From: Mactromeris polynyma
Taxonomy: Eukaryota; Mollusca; Bivalvia; Venerida; Mactridae
Length of the DNA stretch: 64,000 bases
Direction: 5' to 3'
NCBI GenBank assembly: GCA_032209605.1
Contig: JASFXZ010000013.1
Location: forward strand, 6,905,401 to 6,969,400
Shown: positions 1-63,921 of the stretch, piece after piece
Numbering within the stretch: the first letter of the stretch is position 1
How the letters are laid out: every line of letters begins with the position of its first letter
Made by a program: the position numbers and the translations under genes
Notes under the pieces: generated by a model
The model's input: the letters and a program-made list of their open reading frames with translations, nothing else
Told to the model about the DNA's origin: nothing
Database searches by the model: none

Positions 1-143
1 ACAGGTCACGTTCATGTGACCTTTGAGTAGCCAATCAAATCGTCGACTGCAAAATGCTGTGGTATAGAGTTATGAATATTCGTTGATCTCCGACGAGCTC
101 CGTTAATTCTATTTGAGCGTAGATCTCCGAGGCGTTCCGATTA

Positions 144-477
144 GGCCAATAATAAAATATTGTTTGTTTCCCCTCCCACGACCAACCGTTGAAAAAAAAT
201 TTCCGCTAAATTTGCCGGGTCTGAATATTCGCTCGTACCAGTCAGTTGAGTAGCCACATCATCAATAAATCTATGAAGCAGGGATAAATAGATTTTAGCT
301 TCAAGTATCATATTTTTACTTACCCCAATGAAAATAAATCTATTAAGATGTTAAATCTATACCGAACACATTTCAAGCTTGTTTAAAAAAGTTATAAAAA
401 ATATCTGCCCTACCTACCTACCCTACTGTGATGGGCTAGGGTCGCGGGAGGGGAAACAAACATTTTTAATATCGGCC
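144..477. mobile_element. PIF/Harbinger-like MITE, copy 1
   Basis: A 334-bp element with terminal inverted repeats of about 38 bp. The left end starts GGCCAATAATAAAATATTG and the right end read in reverse starts GGCCGATATTAAAAATG; both continue into GTTTGTTTCCCCTCCC. It is flanked by TTA on both sides (141-143 and 478-480), the 3-bp target duplication typical of PIF/Harbinger elements. It has no coding capacity. The same element lies at 61466-61812 and, in opposite orientation, at 63632-63921. Confidence 0.85.
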
Positions 478-597
478 TTACATATTTTCGTCAATTTCAA
501 TATGGCTGCGCCCGTGGACACAACCGCGACTCATACACAGCAACATTCTTTGGTTGATCGGTGTTGTTTGTGTGGTGTTTCGTTTTTATACTCCAGT

Positions 598-1037
598 TTG
601 AAAAACAGGACGTATTATGGGAACACCCGCGGCGGGCGGCGTCCACATGGTTTCCGCTCTCTAAGTCAAAGAGTTTTCATCCGATCTTTACCAACCTTGG
701 TAAAAAAAATTGTGGGCATAATATCTCGGTCAAGTATGATAACCAACCACATCGCCCCAAGCACTTCTGAATTATGGCCCTTGAATTATCCAAAATCGGC
801 CAAATTAGCCTTGTCCGCTTTCCAAGTCAAACAGTTTTCATCTGCTCTCTCCTAACTTGGTGAAAATGTTTGTGGGCATAATATCTTGGCCAAGTTCGAT
901 AACCAGTCATATCGCTCATGTCACCTGGGAGTTGTCACCCTTTGATTTTTAGAAATTACCTAAAATTTGTCTTGTTTTAACTCTGAGCTCTTGACTTATG
1001 ACGGACGTATTTTGTGCCAGTTTGGCACTCTTGTTGG
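598..1037 (+). mobile_element. Pearl-like / Helitron-like non-autonomous element (two core units)
   Basis: Two degenerate direct repeats of about 165 bp, each containing 'gggcataatatct-gg-caagt--gataaccag', followed by an end with a short hairpin (GTGCCA..TGGCAC) and CTTGTTG. The leading part (GGACGTATTATGGG...GGCGGGCGGCGTCCA) matches the leading part of the larger element at 57590-58925. The layout of tandem ~160-bp cores fits the bivalve pearl family; the family name is inferred from structure, not from a search. Confidence 0.55.
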
Positions 1038-1475
1038 AAATATTTATAACCGCAAGTATAAACTGAAACTGTGAATAAACGATAAAAGCATTTTGAGAAA
1101 GACGACAAACACAGTTTTGTAAGAAGAAATTTCATATGACAAACGAGCACCTTGTTACGCATATCTATTTTGAGAGAGGTTATATGAACTTGACCTCTTA
1201 CGCAGTGTAGTCAGATCCTAACAGCGGAAAGTAATGGAGCTAAAGTTAGGGGCTGATTTCAATATGAGATTGATGAAAACTTAACTAGGATTAAGAACAT
1301 TTTAATATCAGATACAGAAGAAAGTGATGGACAAAATCACAAGCGGTAGTATTAATGCTGTGTTATATTTCGACAGGCATCCATCTATTGCTATATATTG
1401 ACATCATGCGTGTATTTTGTGGTATAAATAGTTAGAATTTCCTTGTTTAATTTTGGGTTTTTATCATGATTTCAG

Positions 1476-1840
1476 ATCAATATCTGTTTAGATATCAATA
1501 TCTTCTCATTGAGATTGGTACTAAAGTACTGAGAGAGATATTCGATGTACACGTTGGTCATGACTTTGTCGCTTACTTGAATTCAAACAGCGCTGCAAGT
1601 AAAACACTAACTTCTTTGATGACTGGCAAGAATCGTACAATTACTGCTGACCAGGAAAAATTGCTTCCCCCGAAAGAGAAAAAACCAAATTCAACTATGT
1701 ACGAAGTAACCTTGTTGTCCTGTCTCCTGAGAAATGTTTGTGGTTTAAGTCCTGCTGGAGATCAAGTATGGATGAATCCTTTACCTACAGACCATAGCAC
1801 AGAAGCGGATATTACACGATTGAGGAAATGCAGAAACAGT
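1476..1840 (+). CDS. Exon: HEPN domain, N-terminal part (copy 1)
   Basis: The exon encodes Y-L-L-I-E-I-G-T-K-V-L-R-E-I-F-D near its start, L-L-S-C-L-L-R-N-V-C-G-L in the middle and D-I-T-R-L-R-K-C-R-N-S at its end, the pattern of the HEPN domain at the N-terminus of DZIP3-like proteins. The acceptor TTTCAG ends at 1475 and leaves phase 1. The donor GTATGT starts at 1841 in phase 0. The same frame stays open to a TAA at 1886-1888, but that extension does not look like HEPN, whereas splicing to 2438 continues the domain. The ATG at 1466 is open in the same frame and could serve as an alternative start if there is no upstream exon; the intact acceptor and the 2A exon of the paralogue argue against this. 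Confidence 0.88.
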
Positions 1841-4800
1841 GTATGTATTAGGGAAAAACTGAATGAACGACGTTTTAGCTTTGATTAACATACATATTTG
1901 TTTCTCCTCAAAAGTTATATAGACATGTTTATTAGTAGAATAAGTACATGAAGATTTACAACCAGAAATCTCCGAACTACATAAATGTGTGTTCTTTGGT
2001 TAAAATATTTGCCACAATTACTTTCAGTTGCACATGTTCAGTTTAATGGTTATTTGAAAGATATAAAGGCAACAAATCAGGTCTATCAATTTTCACACTG
2101 TTTGAAGTATTGAACACTTGAAAAATGCCTTTAATTCTTAACTTCTACAATTTGTACTTTGACTTCTGCTGAATATGATTATTTTATAATCTCCCAATAT
2201 TGTCAGCATGTTATTGTTTCAATACCTTGAACAATTGAATGGTGGCAAAATTACAATGATTCAACGTTCTGTTTCTAATCAATGTTTAACAAAGTCTTAC
2301 ATTTAAAGGTGATGAGGGTTCTGGTTATGGTTATGATGATTTAATGAAGTGATTGTATATATCTGTCTTTGTTTTTTTACTGGAAGTTATGTAGGTTTAT
2401 TAGAAAATGATGAAAATAAGTTCTGTTTTTTTTTCAGATGATGCATATCGATACATTACGCATATCGGAGAAGGACTTAAATGATAAATGGCAAGAATTG
2501 GTGGAGGTAAATACCTTATGAAATTCTAACGAGTTTTAGGAATTAAAACAATATTTAATTCACATATAATTATAATTGATTATGATAGAAAATACATGTG
2601 TTGATTATCATCACTTCTGGGTTCCTGGTTTCAGTAAGTAAAACAGTATATGGGGAATGTCACATTCACAGTACAGTGCCTCCCCATACACACACAATCA
2701 GGGTATGAACCTAAATCCAAGATGTGGAAGGTGTATGATTCAAAGTTACTAAACTAACAATGATCAGGAAACAGGATTTGGGTATGAGATATAACAGTAA
2801 ATGGGAGGAAAATGAGAAATAGTATTATATATATCTAAAAACATGTGTACTGGGTATAATTAAATGTTGATGAATTCTTGCATACGAAACTGGGATTTCG
2901 CTCGTTCCACCGGTGCTGGAAAACTAATATTTTATATCCCAACGTAGGATGAGTCTCGTGCTGATGACGTCACGTAATGATGTCACATAACATTGAAAAT
3001 AACTAGATTGAATTAGTAAAATGATATGTTACTATAATAATAAGCAAAACTCCTTCGAAACTTCAGTTGTTTTATTCATTCTCGTCCTTGACTTCTTGAA
3101 AAAGGTATGCACTAAAAAGAATCTTTCACTGAGCTAACCAGTCGCTCCACTTTGTTTTTACTGAAGACAGTGTTTAAATACTAATAATGTACATCACAAA
3201 GCAACAAACTGTTATTCACTGAATTTCTGTAAATAATGCAGAATTGATGTAATTTATTAGAGAACCAAAATTGAAATTTTGAATTGGCTCAGAGTTTTCG
3301 TACAGGTGGCTTCATGTGCAGATGGAAATATCTGCCACGCGAGTAACTGATTTCGTGGAACCTCGGCAGAGCCTCGTTCCCGCCTGTCTGTAGACAAAAT
3401 ATTTCTGTGCTATTTCTCGGTTACCATTTGTTTGATTTTAGTGAAACTTCACAAGACTTCTTAGTACCAAGCCTACTTGTGCATATCGTGACACATCACA
3501 TTTGGATAAAATTTCACCGAGTAATGGGTCTTTGCTAATTTGTCTATACTTCAACTTTGTCAGGACTATCATTGACATGGTTACAGTTACTGTGTCAAGG
3601 CAGTATCTGGGGTTTTTCATCATCTTCAGTGATAGTTCTTGTAGAGCTCTGGAATTGAATAGTTAAATAGTACAGTGTGATCAAATTGTTTTTGAAATTC
3701 CTACAGCAATTCTTCCAAAATGACTTCAGAAAGGTACTGTATTGTCCAGAAGTATATATGATAACAAAATAATGGAAGAGGTCACAGTTCCACGAGTTTA
3801 AACATATTGATTTTACATTTATTTTGAAACAAAATATTCATTCATGTTTTTGCTAGTACTCTTATATCCTATGAATATCATTCCAACCTTTACATTTATA
3901 TCTGCAGATTTTAAACAGGCTCAATGGTGCTGCTGGAATAGGGAACTTGTCGAAATTGATAAGTGATGCCAGTTTCATGGATATCGATGAAGAGCTAAAA
4001 CAACGGTATCTTGAAACAATAAAAGCTTGGATTACAATGGATTGTTTAGTGGACAAAATACAAGAAGATTTTGCTGAAGTGAAACGTGGTCAGTCTGATA
4101 TACAACAAGATGTCGCTGAAGTGAAACGTGGTCAGTCTGATATACAATAAGATGTCGCTGAAGTGAAACGTGGTCAGTCTGATATACAACAAGATGTCGC
4201 TGAAATGAAACGTGGTCAGTCTGATATACAACAAGATGTCGCTGAAGTGAAACGTGGTCGGTCTGATATACAACAAGATGTCGCTGAAGTGAAACGTGGT
4301 CAGTCTGATATACAACAAGATGTCACTGAAGTGAAATGTGGTCAGTCTGATATACAACAAGATGTTGCTGAAGTGAAACGTGGTCAGTCTGATATACAAC
4401 AAGATGTCGCTGAAGTGAAACGTGGTCAGTCTGATATACAACAAGACGTTGCTGAAGTGAAACGTGGTCAGTCTGACATACAACAAGATGTTGCTGGTCT
4501 TAATACTCGTGTAGAACATGTGGAAAAAAAACTTCAAGGACAACATTATTTAACTCATCTTGAAGGTAACATATATTATATTGTGATAAACTTCTACATC
4601 TTGTTTTTTATGCCTGGTCTTGGTAGCACAGTGTTGCCCAAGTCTGTGTGTATATGTTTGTGTGTGTGTGTGTGTGTTCGAAAAGCACAGAATCATGTCT
4701 GTCTCATAACTTAATTTGCAGAATTCCATGCATTAGTATTTTAATGAAGTAAAAAGATGTATAATGTTCTGTCAAGATATGATAATAAGTTACTGTGGAT

Positions 4801-7800: not shown

Positions 7801-10800
7801 ACAGCCATAAAGAACAACAACAATTAGCATTACTTGTCATCGATTTATAATTATGTCTTCTCTCCGGAGGAGACATATTGTTTCTGTTTGCGTCTGTCCG
7901 TCCGTCCACTTTTAGCTTGTCTGCACTTTATGTCCAATACTGTTTGTTGGATTTCAGCCATACTTCATAGGATTGATCAACATCAAGGGTAGTTGTGCAT
8001 CTTCGTTGTTTAGTTCTGCTCGGATAATTGTTCACTGCGTTATGGCCCTATGATGTTTTTATACATAGGTCTGCGCTTCATCTCCAATTCTGCTTGTTGG
8101 ATTTCAGCCATACTTCATAGGAATGATCCAACATCAAGTGTAGCTGTGCATCTTTGTTGTTTTGTTCCGCTCGGATAAGTTTTCACTGAGTTATGGCCCT
8201 ATGATGTTTTTATACAGATGGAGATTGTCCGCCACTCATCACCAATACTGCTGGTTGGATTGCAGCAAAATTCATATGATTGATCAACTTCAAGTCTAGT
8301 TGTGCATCTTTTTTGTTTTTGTTTTCCGCTTGGATAATTTTTCACTGAGTTTTATTAAAACCATGCCACACATTCTGTTTGATTTACATATATGAAACAT
8401 TGTAACAGGGTATGTTATTGTTTGGTCTTGGCAGGGGTCGAAATTGGGTCCTCAGGGTTAAAAACGAGGTAATTAGATCAAATCATAAAAATGTATTGAA
8501 GCATCCCATAGGCCATATTTCATATCTGATCCATTTGGAACCTGACAAGCATGTTAGTGGTTTTAAAATCTTGGTCAAAATTGAAACAGTGTTACGCCCG
8601 GTTAAAAACTAGGTCATGTTGTCATATCATAGAAAATTTGCTTTAACAGCCCTCGGCCACATTTTGTGTCTGAGTTATGCAAAACATGATCAGTATGTTC
8701 GTCTTTGTGAATGAAATCTGGATAAAATGTTCTAAGGTACTAGGATGAGCAATAAAGTACCACCACCACCCTCTTGTCAGTTTCGGGCAATGCAAATGTA
8801 TTGAATATGTCTTCAATGACATTGGTTTGTAATGGGGGAAAGATTAATTCTTGTGCTAATCCATTTTAAGTGAATTTATGTATTATGTATTTAAACATAG
8901 CGTTATATTTTCAGTTATTCAAGAAAAGCTTATAACCATCTACCAGCGTGATTGTCGTTTGTTGCAAGTGTCTCCATTCATTGAAGACGACAATGAAGAT
9001 CTTATGAGTATTTACCAGAGTCCAACACTGCACCATACAGTATATGATAGTAACCAAACAAAAGGCAAACAAGAAACAATTTCATCTTATGAAGAAATAT
9101 TCTGTAAGGATGATAAAACATTCAAGCGTGTGTACATCACTGGTGATGCTGGTGTTGGAAAAACATCGTTGTGTAGGCGTATGTGTTTGTTGTGGAGCAA
9201 GTCCAGGTCGGGAGATTATGCTGGGAATGATGAGAGTACAAAGAGTGACATAAAGTTTTTGGAGAAATTTGACTTTTTATTCTATGTGACTCTAGGTGCT
9301 ACTAATAGGAGAGATATGATTATGATGATTATTGACCAGTTGTTTTACACTGAATGTGGTGATGAAAGGACAGACATGTATAAATTGATTAAAAGCATTC
9401 TTAATCAACATGATTCTCTTATTGTGTTAGATGGATTTGATGAATGGAATCCTAAAACAAGTGGTAAACATGACTGTAAGACACCTAAAGGTATAGAATC
9501 AGAGAAATGTGTATTTTTGACTATGTGCAGACCTTATAAACTTGAAAATGTTCGACTTTCAGGGAACCATATTGACCACCAAATTGAGATTTCGGGAATT
9601 CACGGATTGTCATCTGAACATTATGTTATAGAAGTGGTGAAATATATGAATAAGAAAAATCATGATAACAAGAATGCGGACCAATTCTTAGAAGAAATCA
9701 AGCGATGTGAACTGTATGACCAATTATGTATACCAATGATATCTTCTCATCTGGTTGTGGTATGGTGGTTTAACCAAAAACTGACTCATTTTTCTAAAGC
9801 ATTTTTGTATGGTAAAATTTTAGAAATGCTGTTCAAAAGGGCAGAACGAAAAGTTGAATTTCTTACATTACCACCATCAGACCTGAAGCTTCCCATCTGT
9901 TTCTCACAGCTGGATTATGTCAATGAACATGTTCTATTATTGCAGAAAGTATGTTTACTGTCATTTAACTCATTGTTTAAACAAGATGATTGTGCATCAA
10001 CCCTTGTTTTTACCAAGAAACAGTTAATGATGCTGCCATATTTGTTTACCACTGATGAAATTGATTTTCTCTGTAAAATAGGCATCATATCCAAGAATAA
10101 AGTTATTGGTTGTTTTGAAGACCAAAAACTAATATTATCCTTTGTGCACAAAAGTTATATTGAATTTTTTAGTGCATTATATTTTTCATCATTTGACGCA
10201 TGTAACATGATTGATGGTGTTGTTAAGAATTGGAACACCTTAGATGATGTATTACAATATCAAAACTTCTTCCAGTTTCTTGCAGGATTATCTGGTCATA
10301 AACTCATTTTTTTACTTGAAAATATTTATTCTTTATTATCAGATCATTTAAAATTATGGAGGAAATATGCTGTTGTAAACTATAAGGCAGTCTACACTAA
10401 TTCGTACAGGGAGCAATTAAAGTTATTGCAAACTACTGTGATCAATTGTTTCATTGAATGCAGTAGATCTAATGACCCAAATACTGTACTAAAACTTGAA
10501 GATTTTATTTTTGATGCCAATTCCAATGTTGACATTTTGAGACAACTTTTAATGTTTAGTACAACATGTGTAAAATCAATACATTCTGGTAAAGGTAAAT
10601 ATTATGATGAGTTTGATCAGATCAAAAATCTACAATGTTTACATGTTGGTGACCTGTTGTCTGGTGATTATGTAAAGTTCACTGAGTGCATGTTACAGAA
10701 TCAATCCACACTGCACACTGTTGGTATTGAAGGTGGTACATTGAGACCAGAATTACCTGTGAGAAGTCTCCAACATCTGACAACATTGTCTCTGTCTGAT

Positions 10801-11532
10801 GTTAAAATGCAACATAACAGTTTACATAATCTGGTGAAATTTCTGTCTGACACTGTTCTCATTGAAAATATCAAATTGTCCTCTGTGTCTTGTGATAATC
10901 ACCAGTATGATGATAGTGACTGTACTACATTGACTCTAAATCTTCCACATCATACAAAACTCACTTCATTATATCTGCAGTATGTTAATATTTTATGTAA
11001 TAATGTAAACAATTCTAGTTTAAAGTCCACCACATTGAATACATTTTCTGAGAGGATTGATAGATGTTATATTGATGTATTTAACTGTATTAAGTATTCA
11101 CAACTTGAACATCTTTATATTGATGGATCTCCCTGGTACAGGTTAGATTACAATACAATGAAAACATTGATACACACAGTGAAAACTCTTCCATATATCA
11201 AGTCACTAAAACTGTGGCGCATGAAGTTACCTGATGATGTTTTATTACAACTACATCCTGATGTAACACAAGTGAAGATAGTGCTGTGTGGTGTCACACT
11301 GAGTCGTCAATGTTTTCATTGTTTCATTAAAAGTTGTGTAAACAATAAATCTGTGATAAAAGTTAATTTATATGACTATAGGATTACATCAGTTGATGGA
11401 GAAACTCACAGAGTACTGTCACAGAAGGAGTCGGTGGATTATATGTCTGAGTATCTTACATCAATACCTACAGTAAACATCACATATAAAGGTGATTATA
11501 GGGTATACTTTGAAACAGGAAGTTGTCAGTAA
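1476..11532 (+). CDS. NLR-like gene: DZIP3-type HEPN, coiled-coil repeats, NACHT, LRR-like (copy 1; one internal stop)
   Basis: Four exons join with matching phases: 1476-1840, 2438-2506, 3908-4565 and 8915-11532. The exon set encodes about 1,236 residues. Domains in order are a HEPN domain of the type found in DZIP3-like proteins, ten 14-residue coiled-coil units, a NACHT ATPase with Walker A and Walker B motifs, and a C-terminal region of irregular leucine-rich repeats. This is the layout of a cytosolic NLR-type innate immune receptor: N-terminal effector, oligomerising ATPase, sensing repeats. Acceptor phase 1 at 1476 means a first exon lies upstream of the window; in the paralogue at 60912 that exon encodes a 2A-like leader. 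A TAA in the coiled-coil array (4148-4150) would truncate the product after about 225 window-encoded residues, before NACHT. The rest of the frame is intact, so the lesion is recent, allelic or a sequencing error. Ligand and exact role are unknown. Confidence 0.85.
2438..2506 (+). CDS. Exon: HEPN domain, C-terminal part
   Basis: This 69-nt exon lies between a strong acceptor (T-tract then CAG at 2435-2437) and donor GTAAAT at 2507. It is phase 0 on both sides and encodes 23 residues starting M-M-H-I-D-T and ending D-K-W-Q-E-L-V-E. Joined to the previous exon it gives R-N-S-M-M-H, matching the R-x4-6-H motif of HEPN domains, followed by the usual short helix with a conserved Trp. It is too short to be seen as an ORF alone; it is supported by domain continuity and phase. 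Confidence 0.85.
2507..3907 (+). other. Intron 2; includes a possible repeat at about 2885-3410
   Basis: A 1.4-kb intron without coding signs. The segment from about 2885 (TGGGATTTCGCTCGTTCC) to about 3395 (CCTCGGCAGAGCCTCGTTCC) carries the CGAGGCTCTGCCGAG-type motif also seen at the centre of the palindrome at 32986-33125, so it may be a related degenerate element. The rest shows nothing recognisable. Confidence 0.4.
3908..4565 (+). CDS. Exon: helical linker and coiled-coil repeat array, with in-frame TAA
   Basis: The acceptor CTGCAG ends at 3907 and the donor is GTAACA at 4566 (phase 1). The first ~50 residues (I-L-N-R-L-N-G-A-A-G-I...) resemble the helix after HEPN in this family. Ten 14-residue units (D-V-A-E-V-K-R-G-Q-S-D-I-Q-Q) follow at 4067-4486, then a degenerate end with V-E-H-V-E-K-K-L. 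Fourteen residues are two heptads with V, V, Q, I at the a/d positions, predicting a continuous coiled coil that may drive oligomerisation. The TAA at 4148-4150 replaces the CAA seen at this place in the other units. Confidence 0.85.
4067..4486 (+). repeat. Coding minisatellite, 42 bp x 10
   Basis: Ten near-perfect 42-bp units with consensus peptide D-V-A-E-V-K-R-G-Q-S-D-I-Q-Q. Variants are F for V in unit 1, CAA to TAA in unit 2, M for V, R for Q, and T plus C in unit 7. Because 42 is a multiple of three, copy-number change keeps the frame and changes coiled-coil length by whole double heptads. Low divergence points to recent expansion or homogenisation. Confidence 0.97.
4148..4150 (+). other. 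In-frame premature stop (TAA) in coiled-coil unit 2
   Basis: The bases read ...ATA CAA TAA GAT GTC..., where every sibling unit has CAA CAA GAT. This is a single C-to-T change in a Gln codon. The frame continues without interruption from 4151 to the exon end and fits the NACHT exon. Confidence 0.9.
4641..4679. repeat. TG-rich microsatellite
   Basis: An interrupted then continuous (TG)n tract just inside intron 3, about 75 bases after the donor. Likely polymorphic; no function inferred. Confidence 0.9.
4803..5416. mobile_element. Non-autonomous element with tandem internal units and inverted ends
   Basis: It starts GTCGAGCCCGC (4804-4814) and ends GCGGGCTTGAC (5406-5416), an inverted pair. 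Inside are degenerate direct repeats of 110-130 bp around 'ATTTTC-ATTTACTTGGCACA-AT-TTCA' and 'GTAGCTCAAAGGTCA'. A reverse relative starts near 20640-20700. It is a repeat-bearing mobile element of the kind common in bivalve introns; no coding capacity. Confidence 0.55.
5600..5775 (+). mobile_element. tRNA-derived SINE
   Basis: A box A-like segment (GAACGAGTGGTT, about 5612-5623) and a box B (GGTTCGAATAA, about 5664) sit about 45 bp apart, followed by an unrelated tail (GGAAGCCATTTAGATTACGG...GTCGTCCTTCACC). This is the structure of a Leu/Ser-type tRNA-headed SINE. Located in intron 3. Confidence 0.6.
5776..7859. other. Intron 3, no recognisable feature
   Basis: AT-rich intronic DNA. A loose inverted pair (AAAAAAGTTATGAAGG near 5883 and CTTTATAACTTTTTT near 5970) is visible. 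No domain, RNA or clear element is recognised. Confidence 0.5.
7862..8350 (+). mobile_element. Tandem-unit element (about 3 x 150 bp)
   Basis: Three direct repeats containing 'GTTGGATTTCAGCCATACTTCATAGGA-TGATC-ACATCAAG--TAG-TGTGCATCTT-GTTGTTT' with 'TTATGGCCCTATGATGTTTTTATACA' between them. It begins CTCCGGAGGAGACATATTG. A single related unit lies near 41470-41610, with GGGAGACATATG at 41693. Probably a non-autonomous DNA element in intron 3. Confidence 0.6.
8412..8720 (+). repeat. Degenerate ~160-bp direct repeats
   Basis: Two loose units, each with 'GGTTAAAAAC-AGGT' followed by 'TCATA-AAAAT' and 'GGCCA-ATTT--T-TCTGA'. This resembles low-copy tandem units of bivalve mobile elements. It lies just before the NACHT exon; no coding signal. 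Confidence 0.35.
8915..11532 (+). CDS. Exon: NACHT ATPase and LRR-like C-terminus
   Basis: The acceptor TTTTCAG ends at 8914. Two bases complete the codon left by 4565, giving V-I-Q-E-K-L-I-T-I-Y in frame. Numbered from the upstream in-frame ATG at 8878, Walker A G-D-A-G-V-G-K-T-S is residues 89-97 (from 9142), Walker B L-I-V-L-D-G-F-D-E is 181-189, and a sensor-like T-M-C-R-P follows at 215-219. Downstream is a helical region with W-W-F and F-V-H-K-S-Y-I-E-F-F typical of NACHT winged-helix/helical parts. From about residue 582 irregular leucine-rich segments appear (L-T-T-L-S-L-S, L-T-S-L-Y-L-Q, L-E-H-L-Y-I-D, I-K-S-L-K-L-W). Stop TAA at 11530. NACHT proteins use ATP to oligomerise on sensing a trigger. 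No other domain follows. Confidence 0.92.
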
Positions 11533-59533: not shown

Positions 59534-60600
59534 TAGGGGTGAGACGATTCATCGACGCATCATGATACAATCACGCCCGATACTCTGTCTCGTATCGTTC
59601 ATACGTAATGGTTTTGAGAAAAATCGATGTTAATTGCCACATTGCTTCCGGAAAATGTCCAATTGTCTTTAAGTCTGTACCAACACTCACGCCAGAGTTG
59701 CAGTTCTTGTCGGTAAATCAAAATGGCAGAAGTTAAAGATAGTGTTAAAGATAAGCTTTCTCGTAAAGGGAGATCACCGTGTCGCAAGTGAAACAAAATG
59801 GCGTCTCCCATGGCAGAAATGTATTTTCAAGTTTTATGGATAGGTTATCCGTCATTGTCTTCGCCGAAGAAATCATTTATGCGGGCGTCATTGGACGAAG
59901 ACGTTGGAACTGCACTCGCCCGAATTATACCAAAGGAGGACTTGGTGGTTACTGTGAATTTGATCTTAATACTGTTTAGTCATATGTTTTCGTAACCATG
60001 TACACAAATAAAACAATGCACTGAATAATATTGGTGAATATGCTTAAATCACTCGACATTTCGAAACGTATAATACAAAAGAAGTCATGGTTGTTTTACA
60101 GTTTGTTTCTGTCTGAGATATCTGACAAGAAATGCTGTGAAAACAAAAACAAAACAGAAGAAGTGACATTTCGACTTGAATATTAAACAAGTGTTATATA
60201 TTAAAATGACATATTACCAGTACACTGTTTGTTTTTTCCAAATTTATACATACCTAATCATTTTTTTTTTCGACCTACCAGTCAAGTCAGTAACCAAGAA
60301 AAAAAAAAGGTGTGGCCTAATGGTCGGCAAATTACTGACAAATTTAAAACTGTTTGTAAATTATGCTACAGTAAACTAACACATTCTGGAAACGCTAGGA
60401 TTATGAAGTCACACTTAAATCGTCGCCATCCGTCTGTTTCAGGAGGCGGTTCTATATTCTGTAACTGTCTAAAAATGTGTTTGTGCACTACACAAAACCG
60501 ACATCGAGTTATGTCATATTTTGCCATATTTGAGTTTGCTCTCGTCAATATTTGTTCTATTCTAGACAGTGTTGATGATTAAATTGTCTCAACTAATATC
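59534..60600 (+). pseudogene. hAT-like transposon relic with BED zinc finger
   Basis: The left end TAGGGGTGAGACGATTCATC with further CGATAC-type repeats resembles hAT terminal sequences. An ATG at 59723 opens M-A-E-V-K-D-S-V-K-D-K-L-S-R-K-G and stops soon. A BED-type finger follows at about 60310-60432: V-C-K-L-C-Y-S-K-L, then N-A-R-I-M-K-S-H-L-N-R-R-H-P, with the C-x2-C and H-x4-H ligands present (Cys codons 60355 and 60364; His codons 60412 and 60427). The start of the finger is frameshifted near the A-run at 60297-60308. No hAT catalytic region follows, so the copy is truncated. Confidence 0.6.
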
Positions 60601-60775: not shown

Positions 60776-60911
60776 TGTGTATCAAAATATAATACAGAAA
60801 TGAAATTTATTAACCAAAATGTCTAGAATTACTCTCTCACTTCTAGTTTGTAGTTTCTTTGTCAGCATAATATTATATATTGTGATTTATGTTGTATATT
60901 TTTATTTTCAG

Positions 60912-61098
60912 GTGCTAACAATGGGTGTTGACATCAGTACTTACCGATGTAGAGTTGGACGGTTTGTTCCACATCATGGCACGGGTGCGATATGTTTACC
61001 AATCAACTTTAGTCAATTGATCACAATAATAGGGGCCGTTTCCTTTGTTAGAATATTACTTGTTATGGCGGGTGTTGAAGAGAACCCTGGACCCCAAG
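60912..61098 (+). CDS. First coding exon of NLR-like gene copy 2: 2A-like leader
   Basis: An acceptor (T-rich tract, TTTTCAG ending at 60911) precedes ATG at 60921 in a good Kozak context (A at -3, G at +4). Fifty-nine codons follow, starting M-G-V-D-I-S-T-Y-R-C-R-V-G-R-F, then a hydrophobic stretch (I-T-I-I-G-A-V-S-F-V-R-I-L-L-V), and ending G-V-E-E-N-P-G-P-Q. N-P-G-P is the hallmark of 2A peptides, where the ribosome skips the Gly-Pro bond. The donor GTAGGC at 61099 leaves one base (phase 1), exactly what the HEPN acceptor at 62831 needs; the junction codon is GAT (Asp). 2A-like leaders are known at N-termini of sea-urchin NLR-like proteins and in some non-LTR retrotransposons. The usual Asp before V-E is missing. 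An in-frame ATG at 60819 exists but lies before the acceptor. Confidence 0.82.
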
Positions 61099-61465
61099 GT
61101 AGGCATTTTCTGTTTTGTATTATTGCTCTATAACAATTTTTCTTGTAACAAAAAGTCAGAAATTACATGTGTATTCAAACAATGAAATGGTGACCAGAAC
61201 AGCTATTCAGCATTGTGTTTGTGTATATAAATGTTTGAATATATGAAAACTCAATCTCATTAAAATCAGCTCCAGTCGCACGCTCCTTACTGTACTCTAA
61301 CTGGATCTGATGACTGCACAATACAGGTCACGTTCATGTGACCTTTGAGTAGCCAATCAAATCGTCGACTGCAAAATGCTGTGGTATAGAGTTATGAATA
61401 TTCGTTGATCTCCGACGAGCTCCGTTAATTCTATTTGAGCATAGATCACCGAGGCGTTCCGATTA

Positions 61466-61812
61466 GGCCAATAATAAAATATTGTTTGTTTCCCCTCCCA
61501 CGACCAACCGTTGAAAAAAAAAATTCCACTAAATTTGCCAGGTCTGAATATTCGCTCGTACCAGTCAGTTGAGTAGCCACATCATCAATAAATCTATGAA
61601 CAGGGATAAATAGATTTTAGCTTCAAGTATCAAATTTTTACTTACCCCCCCCCCCCCCCCCAATGAAAATAATTCTATTAAGATGTTAAATCTATACCAA
61701 ACACATTTTAAGCTTGTTTAAAAAAGTTATAAAAAATATCTGCCCTACCTACCTACCCTACCGTGATGGGCTAGGGTCGCGGGAGGGGAAACAAACATTT
61801 TTAATATCGGCC
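61466..61812. mobile_element. PIF/Harbinger-like MITE, copy 2
   Basis: Same position and ends as 144-477 with TTA at both sides (61463-61465, 61813-61815). It was therefore present before the segmental duplication. Confidence 0.85.
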
Positions 61813-62830
61813 TTACATATTTTCGTCAATTTCAATATGGCTGCGCCCGTGGACACAACCGCGACTCATACACAGCAACATTCTTTGGTTGATCGGTGTT
61901 TGTGTGGTGTTTCGTTTTTATACTCCAGTTTGAAAAACAGGACGTATTATGGGAACACCCGCGGCGGGCGGCGTCCACATGATTTCCGCTCTCTAAGTCA
62001 AAGAGTTTTCATCCGATCTTTACCAACCTTGGTGAACAATTTTGTGGGCATAATATCTCGGTCAAGTTTGATAACCAACCACATCGCCCCAGGCACTTCT
62101 GAATAATGGCCCTTGAATTATCCAAAATCGGCCAAATTAGCCTTGTCCGCTTTCCAAGTCAAACAGTTTTCATCTGGTCTTCACCTAACTTGGTGCAAAT
62201 GTTTGTGGGCATAATATATTGGCCAAGTTCGATAACCAGTCATATCGCTCATGTCACCCGGGAGTTGTCACCCTTTGATTTTTAGAAATTACCTAAAATT
62301 TGTCTTGTTTTAACTCTGTGCTCTTGACTTATGACGGACGTATTTTGTGCCAGTTTGGCACTCTTGTTGGAAATATTTATAACCGGAAGCGGCAGGAAGG
62401 ACGTTAAAAACAGTATAAACTGAAACTGTGAATAAACGATAAAGCCATTTTGAGAAAGACGACAAACACAGTTTTGTAAGAAGAAATTTCATTGGACAAA
62501 CGAGCACCTTGTTACGCATATCTATTTTGAGAGAGGTTATATGAACTTGACCTCTTACGGAGTGTAGTCAGATCCTAACAGCGGAAAGTAATGGAGCTAA
62601 AGTTAGGGGCTGATTTCAATGAGATAGATGAAAACTTAACTAGGATTAAGTACATTTTAATATCAGATACAGAAGAAAGTGATGGACAAAATCACAAGCG
62701 GTAGTATTAATGCTGTGTAATATTTCAACAGGCATCCATCTATTGCTATATATTGACATCATGCATGTATGTTGTGGTATAAATAGTTATAATTTCCTTG
62801 TTTAATTTTGGGTTTTTATCATGATTTCAG

Positions 62831-63195
62831 ATCAATATCTGTTTAGATATCAATATCTTCTCATTGAGATTGGTACTAAAGTACTTCGAGAAATATTCGA
62901 TGTACACGTTGGTCATGACTTTGTCGCTTACTTGAATTCAAACAGCGCTGCAAGTAAAACACTAACTTCTTTGATGACTGGCAAGAATCGTAAAATTACT
63001 GCTGACCAGGAAAAATTGCTTCCCCCGAAAGAGAAAAAACCAAATTCATCTATGTACGATGTAACCTTGTTGTCCTGTCTACTGAGAAATGTTTGTGGTT
63101 TAAGTCCTGCTGGAGATCAAGTATGGATGAATCCTTTACCTACAGACCATAGCACAGAAGCGGATATTACACGATTGAGGAAATGCAGAAACAGT
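62831..63195 (+). CDS. Exon: HEPN domain, N-terminal part (copy 2)
   Basis: A 365-nt exon with the same acceptor, donor (GTATGT at 63196) and phases as 1476-1840. Counting from the ATG at 62821 as residue 1, it differs from copy 1 by T58K, T77S and E80D and by several silent changes, including three adjacent silent codons at L-R-E (about 62883-62892). It joins upstream to the 2A exon 60912-61098. The second HEPN exon and the rest of this gene lie beyond the window. Confidence 0.88.
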
Positions 63196-63631
63196 GTATG
63201 TATTAGGGAAAAACTGAATGAACGACGTTTTAGCTTTGATTAACATACATATTTGTTTCTCCTCAAAAGTTATATAGACATGTTTATCATCATTAGTAGA
63301 ATAAGTACATGAAGATTTACAACCAGAAATCTCCCAACTATATAAATGTGTGTTGTTTGGTTAAAATATTTGCCACAATTACTTTCAATTGTACATGTTC
63401 AGTTTTATGGTTATTTGAAAGATATAAAGGCAACACATCAGGTCTATCAATTTTCACACTGTTTGAAGTATTGAACACTTGAAAAATGCCTTTAATTCTT
63501 AACTTCTACAATTTGTACTTTGACTTCTGCTGAATATGATTATTTTATAATCTCCTAATATTGTCAGCATGTTATTGTTTCAATACCTTGCACAATTGAA
63601 TGGTGGCAAAATTTCAATGTTCTGTTTCTAA

Positions 63632-63921
63632 GGCCGACATTAAAAATATGTTTGTTTACCCTCCCGCGACCCTAGCCAACCACGGTAGGGTAGGTAGGTA
63701 GGGAAGATAATTGTTTTCACAAGCTTAAAATGTGTTCTGTATAGATTTAACATCTTAATAGATCTATCTTCATTAGGGTAAGTAAAAATTTGATACTTGA
63801 ATATTCGTACCCAGCAATATGGTGAAAAAATAATTTATTTTCGCTAACCTCAATAAAATATTTAAATAATTTTCAACGGTCAGCCGTGGGAGGGGAAACA
63901 AACAATATTTTATTATTGGCC
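63632..63921. mobile_element. PIF/Harbinger-like MITE, copy 3 (private to copy 2)
   Basis: A 290-bp element in opposite orientation to copies 1 and 2, with ends GGCCGACATTAAAAATATG and (reverse) GGCCAATAATAAAATATTG. It is flanked by TAA (63629-63631) and CAA (63922-63924). Copy 1 has the empty site, reading TTTCTAATCAATG at about 2273-2285, so the insertion came after the segmental duplication. It sits in the first HEPN intron. Confidence 0.9.

Follow-up and report, generated by a model that had tools for sequence, protein, structure and literature searches.

Does the short exon with a 2A-like end, located in the distal part of this stretch, form the first coding exon of an NLR-like gene, and could it yield two products from one message? 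The window, which denotes the whole analyzed stretch of 64,000 nucleotides from Mactromeris polynyma, was read again from its letters at this locus. The initial annotation had described an exon ending in V-E-E-N-P-G-P-Q that leaves phase 1, followed by a HEPN exon that accepts phase 1, with one open frame over the junction. The coordinates and splice phases proved correct, and the joined leader and HEPN exons retain an open frame across the junction, confirming the observation. From its start codon, the exon encodes MGVDISTYRCRVGRFVPHHGTGAICLPINFSQLITIIGAVSFVRILLVMAGVEENPGPQ with one base left over, corresponding to a leader of 59 residues terminating in GVEENPGP-Q. The Q codon occupies positions 61095–61097, and the single G at 61098 directly precedes the donor. 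NPGP was found once in a six-frame reading of the window. An in-frame ATG at 60819 was not taken as the start, because the stretch following it resembles, in our judgement, an intron with a pyrimidine tract. The best 19-residue mean hydropathy in the leader is 2.31, at residues 34–52; like the sea-urchin SpNLR2A sequences, the window leader thus combines an N-terminal 2A with a hydrophobic run. An arginine sits within the hydrophobic stretch, which counts against its reading as a signal or anchor. Myristoylation at the MG start was considered and rejected, since in some leaders the fifth residue following Met is D or E. Upstream of the leader exon, an open frame at 60205–60579 matches a BED zinc finger with 21.2 bits, against a cut-off of 20.6.

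Table 1. Coordinates of the features in the window and of one 2A exon at a GTPase locus.
Feature	Position	Strand	Remarks
Leader exon	60912..61098	+	Acceptor AG at 60910-60911; coding from ATG 60921; MGVD...VMAGVEENPGPQ; leaves phase 1; donor GTAGGC starts at 61099 (direct reading); homologs found
Leader hydrophobic segment, 5' of core	61008..61070 (limits approximate)	+	Hydropathy
StopGo/2A core GVEENPGP	61071..61094	+	Fits (D/G/C/N)(V/I)ExNPGP of PMC12846837
Predicted phase-1 intron	61099..62830	+	GTAGGC...TTTCAG; 1,732 nt
HEPN_DZIP3 exon	62831..63195	+	365 nt; acceptor TTTCAG at 62825-62830; accepts phase 1, leaves phase 0; donor GTATGT from 63196; Pfam E 7.6e-19, 68.4 bits (cut-off 27)
HEPN exon of copy 1 (upstream tandem copy)	1476..1840	+	Differs at 7 of 365 nt
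Second HEPN exon of copy 1	2438..2506	+	Completes RNSMMH (R-X4-H)
Coiled-coil repeat exon of copy 1	3908..4565	+	In-frame TAA at 4148-4150
NACHT exon of copy 1	8915..11532	+	PF05729, 6.8e-11; P-loop GDAGVGKT; long C-terminal part, stop at end
2A exon of L117	L117:1815-2003 (C35:9473380-9478000)		Flanked by phase-1 sites; lies between an NPGP-free head exon and the GTPase exon

The locus is part of a tandem duplication, in which window positions 1–2278 and 61323–63631, approximately 61 kb apart, are 95% identical. The duplication implied that the leader of the upstream copy (copy 1) should lie just before the window start, and it was then found there (C35:6904998-6905174), encoding a protein identical to the window leader; more leader copies are present on C35. 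Downstream of the HEPN exon of copy 1, the phases of the second HEPN, coil, and NACHT exons all fit. The NACHT domain therefore lies outside the leader–HEPN interval for which the initial annotation had named it, and in copy 1 it is the exon at 8915–11532. The downstream copy (copy 2) continues past the window end with a second HEPN exon that shares 68 of 69 nt with that of copy 1, an open coil exon, and a NACHT part that begins after the Walker A region. No Walker A was found in the 10 kb searched downstream. Given the stop in the coil of copy 1 and the NACHT part without Walker A in copy 2, a full protein is shown for neither window copy, and both look damaged downstream of the first HEPN exon. 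Elsewhere in the genome, locus L016 reads through five exons without a stop, giving 1,180 residues that comprise leader, HEPN, coil, and NACHT, with RNALMH as the HEPN R-X4-H motif and GDAGTGKT in the NACHT domain; its Pfam matches (HEPN 5e-21, NACHT 3.1e-6) are both above the cut-off. NACHT with Walker A is therefore present in the copy 1 exon and in L016. No LRR family appeared among the Pfam matches of either at E ≤ 1, nor among those of the Mactra proteins P0004 and P0005 at 0.01, and the gene is accordingly named NLR-like rather than NLR. An inverted pair of MITE-like repeats (61465–61810 and 63631–63921) brackets the HEPN exon of the window.

The observation is larger than first reported, and it is conserved. 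A leader search of the same genome yielded at least 150 scored places (the best 150 of 217 candidates, all with E ≤ 2.5e-5), and the Mercenaria leader as a query added 17 more, for a total of 167 among the matches listed. At least 105 of these 167 places are followed on the same strand by a listed HEPN exon at a distance of up to 10 kb, and at least 89 at up to 3.5 kb, compared with a mean of 0.9 and a maximum of 5 in a position-shift control (200 shifts of 20–500 kb, 3.5-kb limit). Within 10 kb of a leader place, no listed HEPN exon stands upstream or on the opposite strand. Since the HEPN exons are the best 150 of 271 candidates, 105 is a lower bound. The remaining 62 leader places are without a HEPN exon among those listed, 51 of the 150 listed HEPN exons are without a listed leader within 10 kb, and uncollapsed haplotypes may inflate the counts. 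In a set of 12 loci, a HEPN exon follows within approximately 2.3 kb in eight and is absent from that distance at L028, L030, L034, and L035. At C252:833201-838691, six leader places stand in a row with a spacing of about 1.06 kb, and the three that were read (L030) retain the core.

The splice phases and the core are conserved across the family. A phase-1 donor and acceptor are present in every one of the 21 loci at which leader and HEPN were both identified (sets of 13 and 8), with introns of 0.28–3.1 kb; the HEPN frames of two of them, L022 and L026, are broken. We fetched 72 leaders by leader similarity (those of the 12 loci above plus 60 taken chiefly in rank order, with some from the tail of the list), including two taken out of rank, C68:2946114 and C146:5153068, of which one stops short of the core and one has an internal stop. 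NPGP occurs in 68 of the 72, the exact G(V/I)ExNPGP in 64, and G|GT directly after the core in 64. Three further leaders carry Q for E, and one carries T at position 13. In the 68 NPGP leaders, the residues G, N, P, G, and P are invariant while their synonymous codons vary: position 12 is always glycine, encoded by GGG (23), GGT (19), GGC (16), or GGA (10), and the last proline is encoded by CCA (28), CCT (26), CCC (11), or CCG (3). The length ranges from 50 to 65 residues in the 51 leaders with a recognized head. Among 22 distinct leaders selected for having the core, the 36 of 231 pairs retained (dS 0.05–1.0, dN > 0) show a median dN/dS of 0.26 (range 0.11–0.59), with none at or above 1. The window leader exon is 88–90% identical to those of three relatives, compared with 60–63% for the intron and, for two of the three, 48–54% for the upstream flank. 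Near-identical copies are too close for judging selection, and silent changes do not predominate among them: the window leader has 2 replacing and no silent changes relative to L012, and 1 and none, respectively, relative to L013.

The arrangement extends to proteins of other bivalves. Protein searches returned seven relatives (3 + 4), of which two contain NPGP and five do not. The HEPN-NACHT protein P0004 of Mactra carries VGAVCFIRILLVLAGVEENPGPP immediately before HEPN, the same 2A–HEPN junction as in the window, and the very large GTPase P0007 of Mercenaria has a complete leader with 31 of 61 columns identical, ending in GIESNPGPK. At the equivalent junction, the Mactra proteins P0005 and P0002 start with MAGVSPT and MAGVGPT, respectively, and are without NPGP, perhaps reflecting lost cores or annotation effects. 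P0006 is without a leader, and P0001 and P0003 are short HEPN fragments. As a protein query requiring three shared 5-residue words, the leader alone returned no candidate, and P0004 and P0007 were found with the composite query. A scan of viral contigs with the fused protein gave 18 pattern matches and no relatives. Three matches of the leader in a phage tblastn search (E 3–9) and a single match in a PDB search (E 0.56) were rejected. Supported by the paralogous exons, their phases and selection, and by the Mactra junction, the gene layout, in which a 2A leader exon is in phase with HEPN as initially claimed, is strongly supported at the level of sequence.

We consider it probable that this exon opens the coding sequence in a multi-copy HEPN-NACHT (NLR-like) family, in which a shed or fused leader would give two products. 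The encoded leader, of about 60 residues, runs from a conserved MGVDxxTYRxRxGxF head through a hydrophobic signal- or anchor-like segment to the StopGo core, and phase-1 splicing would join it to the HEPN exon. Since the core is kept, skipping at NPG/P is likely: most ribosomes would skip the Gly-Pro bond, so that the leader would be released and the cytosolic protein would begin with Pro. Where skipping fails, the product would keep its hydrophobic leader, which may direct it to a membrane or the secretory path. Such dual placement is a plausible prediction by analogy, and one message could then yield a tethered and a free protein in many immune-type genes. With at least 150 leader places, and at least 105 of 167 with HEPN downstream among the matches listed, it would represent a large-scale, testable strategy, and the use of ribosome skipping to place immune-type proteins would extend to bivalves besides sea urchins.

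The precedent lies in the sea urchin, where NLRs carry N-terminal 2A sequences and both skipping and targeting were shown for one sequence and its mutants (PMC4981915). These SpNLR2A sequences, of 26 residues, were reported on 14 of 87 database NLRs, the earlier figure being 85 of 241 (PMC4981915). The clam leaders resemble them in the location of 2A at the N terminus of a NACHT protein, in the hydrophobic run before the core, and in the predicted split between the cytosol and the exocytic path. They differ in that the sea-urchin proteins are DEATH-NACHT-LRR with D(V/I)ExNPGP (PMC4981915), whereas here HEPN follows, position 12 is G, the head is MGVD, the length is 50–65 residues, and a related leader occurs on very large GTPases as well. 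Cellular organisms rarely use StopGo, and a broadened core permits G at position 12, as in viral sites that include L-rich contexts ending in (A/G/S)G there (PMC12846837). The clam core fits this (D/G/C/N)(V/I)ExNPGP pattern, with an L-rich sequence upstream, but it resides in a cellular gene, in the first coding exon, and is followed by an intron. The '2a-like' of PMC5086354 was rejected as a precedent, being the name of an actin-related gene.

The HEPN-NACHT part resembles described bivalve HEPN_DZIP3-NACHT proteins in the order of HEPN and NACHT, the R-X4-H motif, and the multi-copy nature (PMC9646362; HEPN table of PMC3710099). The main text of PMC9646362 contains none of the terms '2A-like', 'NPGP', and 'signal peptide', and no report of 2A leaders on bivalve NLR-like genes was found among titles and abstracts of the mostly non-subscription literature. 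The presumed immune role follows the hypothesis put forward for the HEPN-NACHT expansions of the pearl oyster (PMC9646362). HEPN RNase domains have been tied more generally to RNA degradation and intragenomic conflict (PMC3710099), and the leader might work as proposed in genes that control transposons or mediate cell death instead of countering infection; in view of the pearl oyster hypothesis, we regard this as rather unlikely.

The very large GTPases present the leader in a different arrangement. Among the five URGCP_GTPase genes listed in the genome, four have a leader exon 4.2–10.7 kb upstream on the same strand, with the MGVD head and without NPGP, and a separate GVExNPGP exon between this leader and the GTPase. 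A phase-1 acceptor and donor are available for each of the four separate 2A exons, the donor of L118 (GTTATT) being weak. At L117, the only locus read through, no stop interrupts the frame as far as the fetched sequence extends, whether the 2A exon is included or skipped. For the fifth gene, on C289, no leader was among those listed, and its partial exon is devoid of NPGP. P0007 of Mercenaria resembles the window gene in its leader; its body is of the URGCP GTPase type and not HEPN-NACHT. Since head and core lie on two phase-1 exons, splicing could set whether the leader is detachable. We tentatively propose a phase-1, exon-shuffled StopGo leader module common to two immune-type families. In HEPN-NACHT genes, where head and 2A share one exon, the leader would normally be shed, and in the GTPases, where 2A is a separate symmetric exon, alternative splicing would toggle between a detachable and a permanent leader. 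As we read it, this common module is what is new, sea-urchin 2A on NLRs being the precedent.

Losses of the core bear on whether skipping still matters. In four of the 72 leaders (L049, L068, L078, L094), NPGP is lost and the rest of the leader is still recognizable, which, together with the NPGP-free head exons of the four GTPase genes, the partial C289 exon, and P0005 and P0002 of Mactra, would be expected if the core were a relic and the leader an ordinary signal or anchor peptide. Nevertheless, NPGP is kept with varied codons in 68 of the 72 leaders, which were chosen by homology, and in four of the five GTPase genes the core persists on an exon of its own; a relic is thus improbable. Natural copies with lost or altered cores provide ready-made comparisons for the predicted skipping.

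2A sequences are known from retroelements, and among 20 pattern matches, four (L017, L020, L025, L027) are near-identical copies of SGDIEENPGPRKNETVWPCAMC, a separate retroelement-type 2A. That the leader is part of, or was recently exonized from, a non-LTR retrotransposon and is no gene exon is nonetheless very improbable, as 13 of the 20 matches are leaders with HEPN downstream (the other three apparently chance), leader copies precede HEPN exons, the phase-1 sites being conserved, the introns variable, and no listed HEPN nearby on the opposite strand, and the leaders match the retroelement type near the core alone, at 55% over 20 columns. An ancient retroelement origin of the leader is possible. 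Splicing of the 2A exon to a retroelement, which had initially been named as a refutation, is accordingly disfavored.
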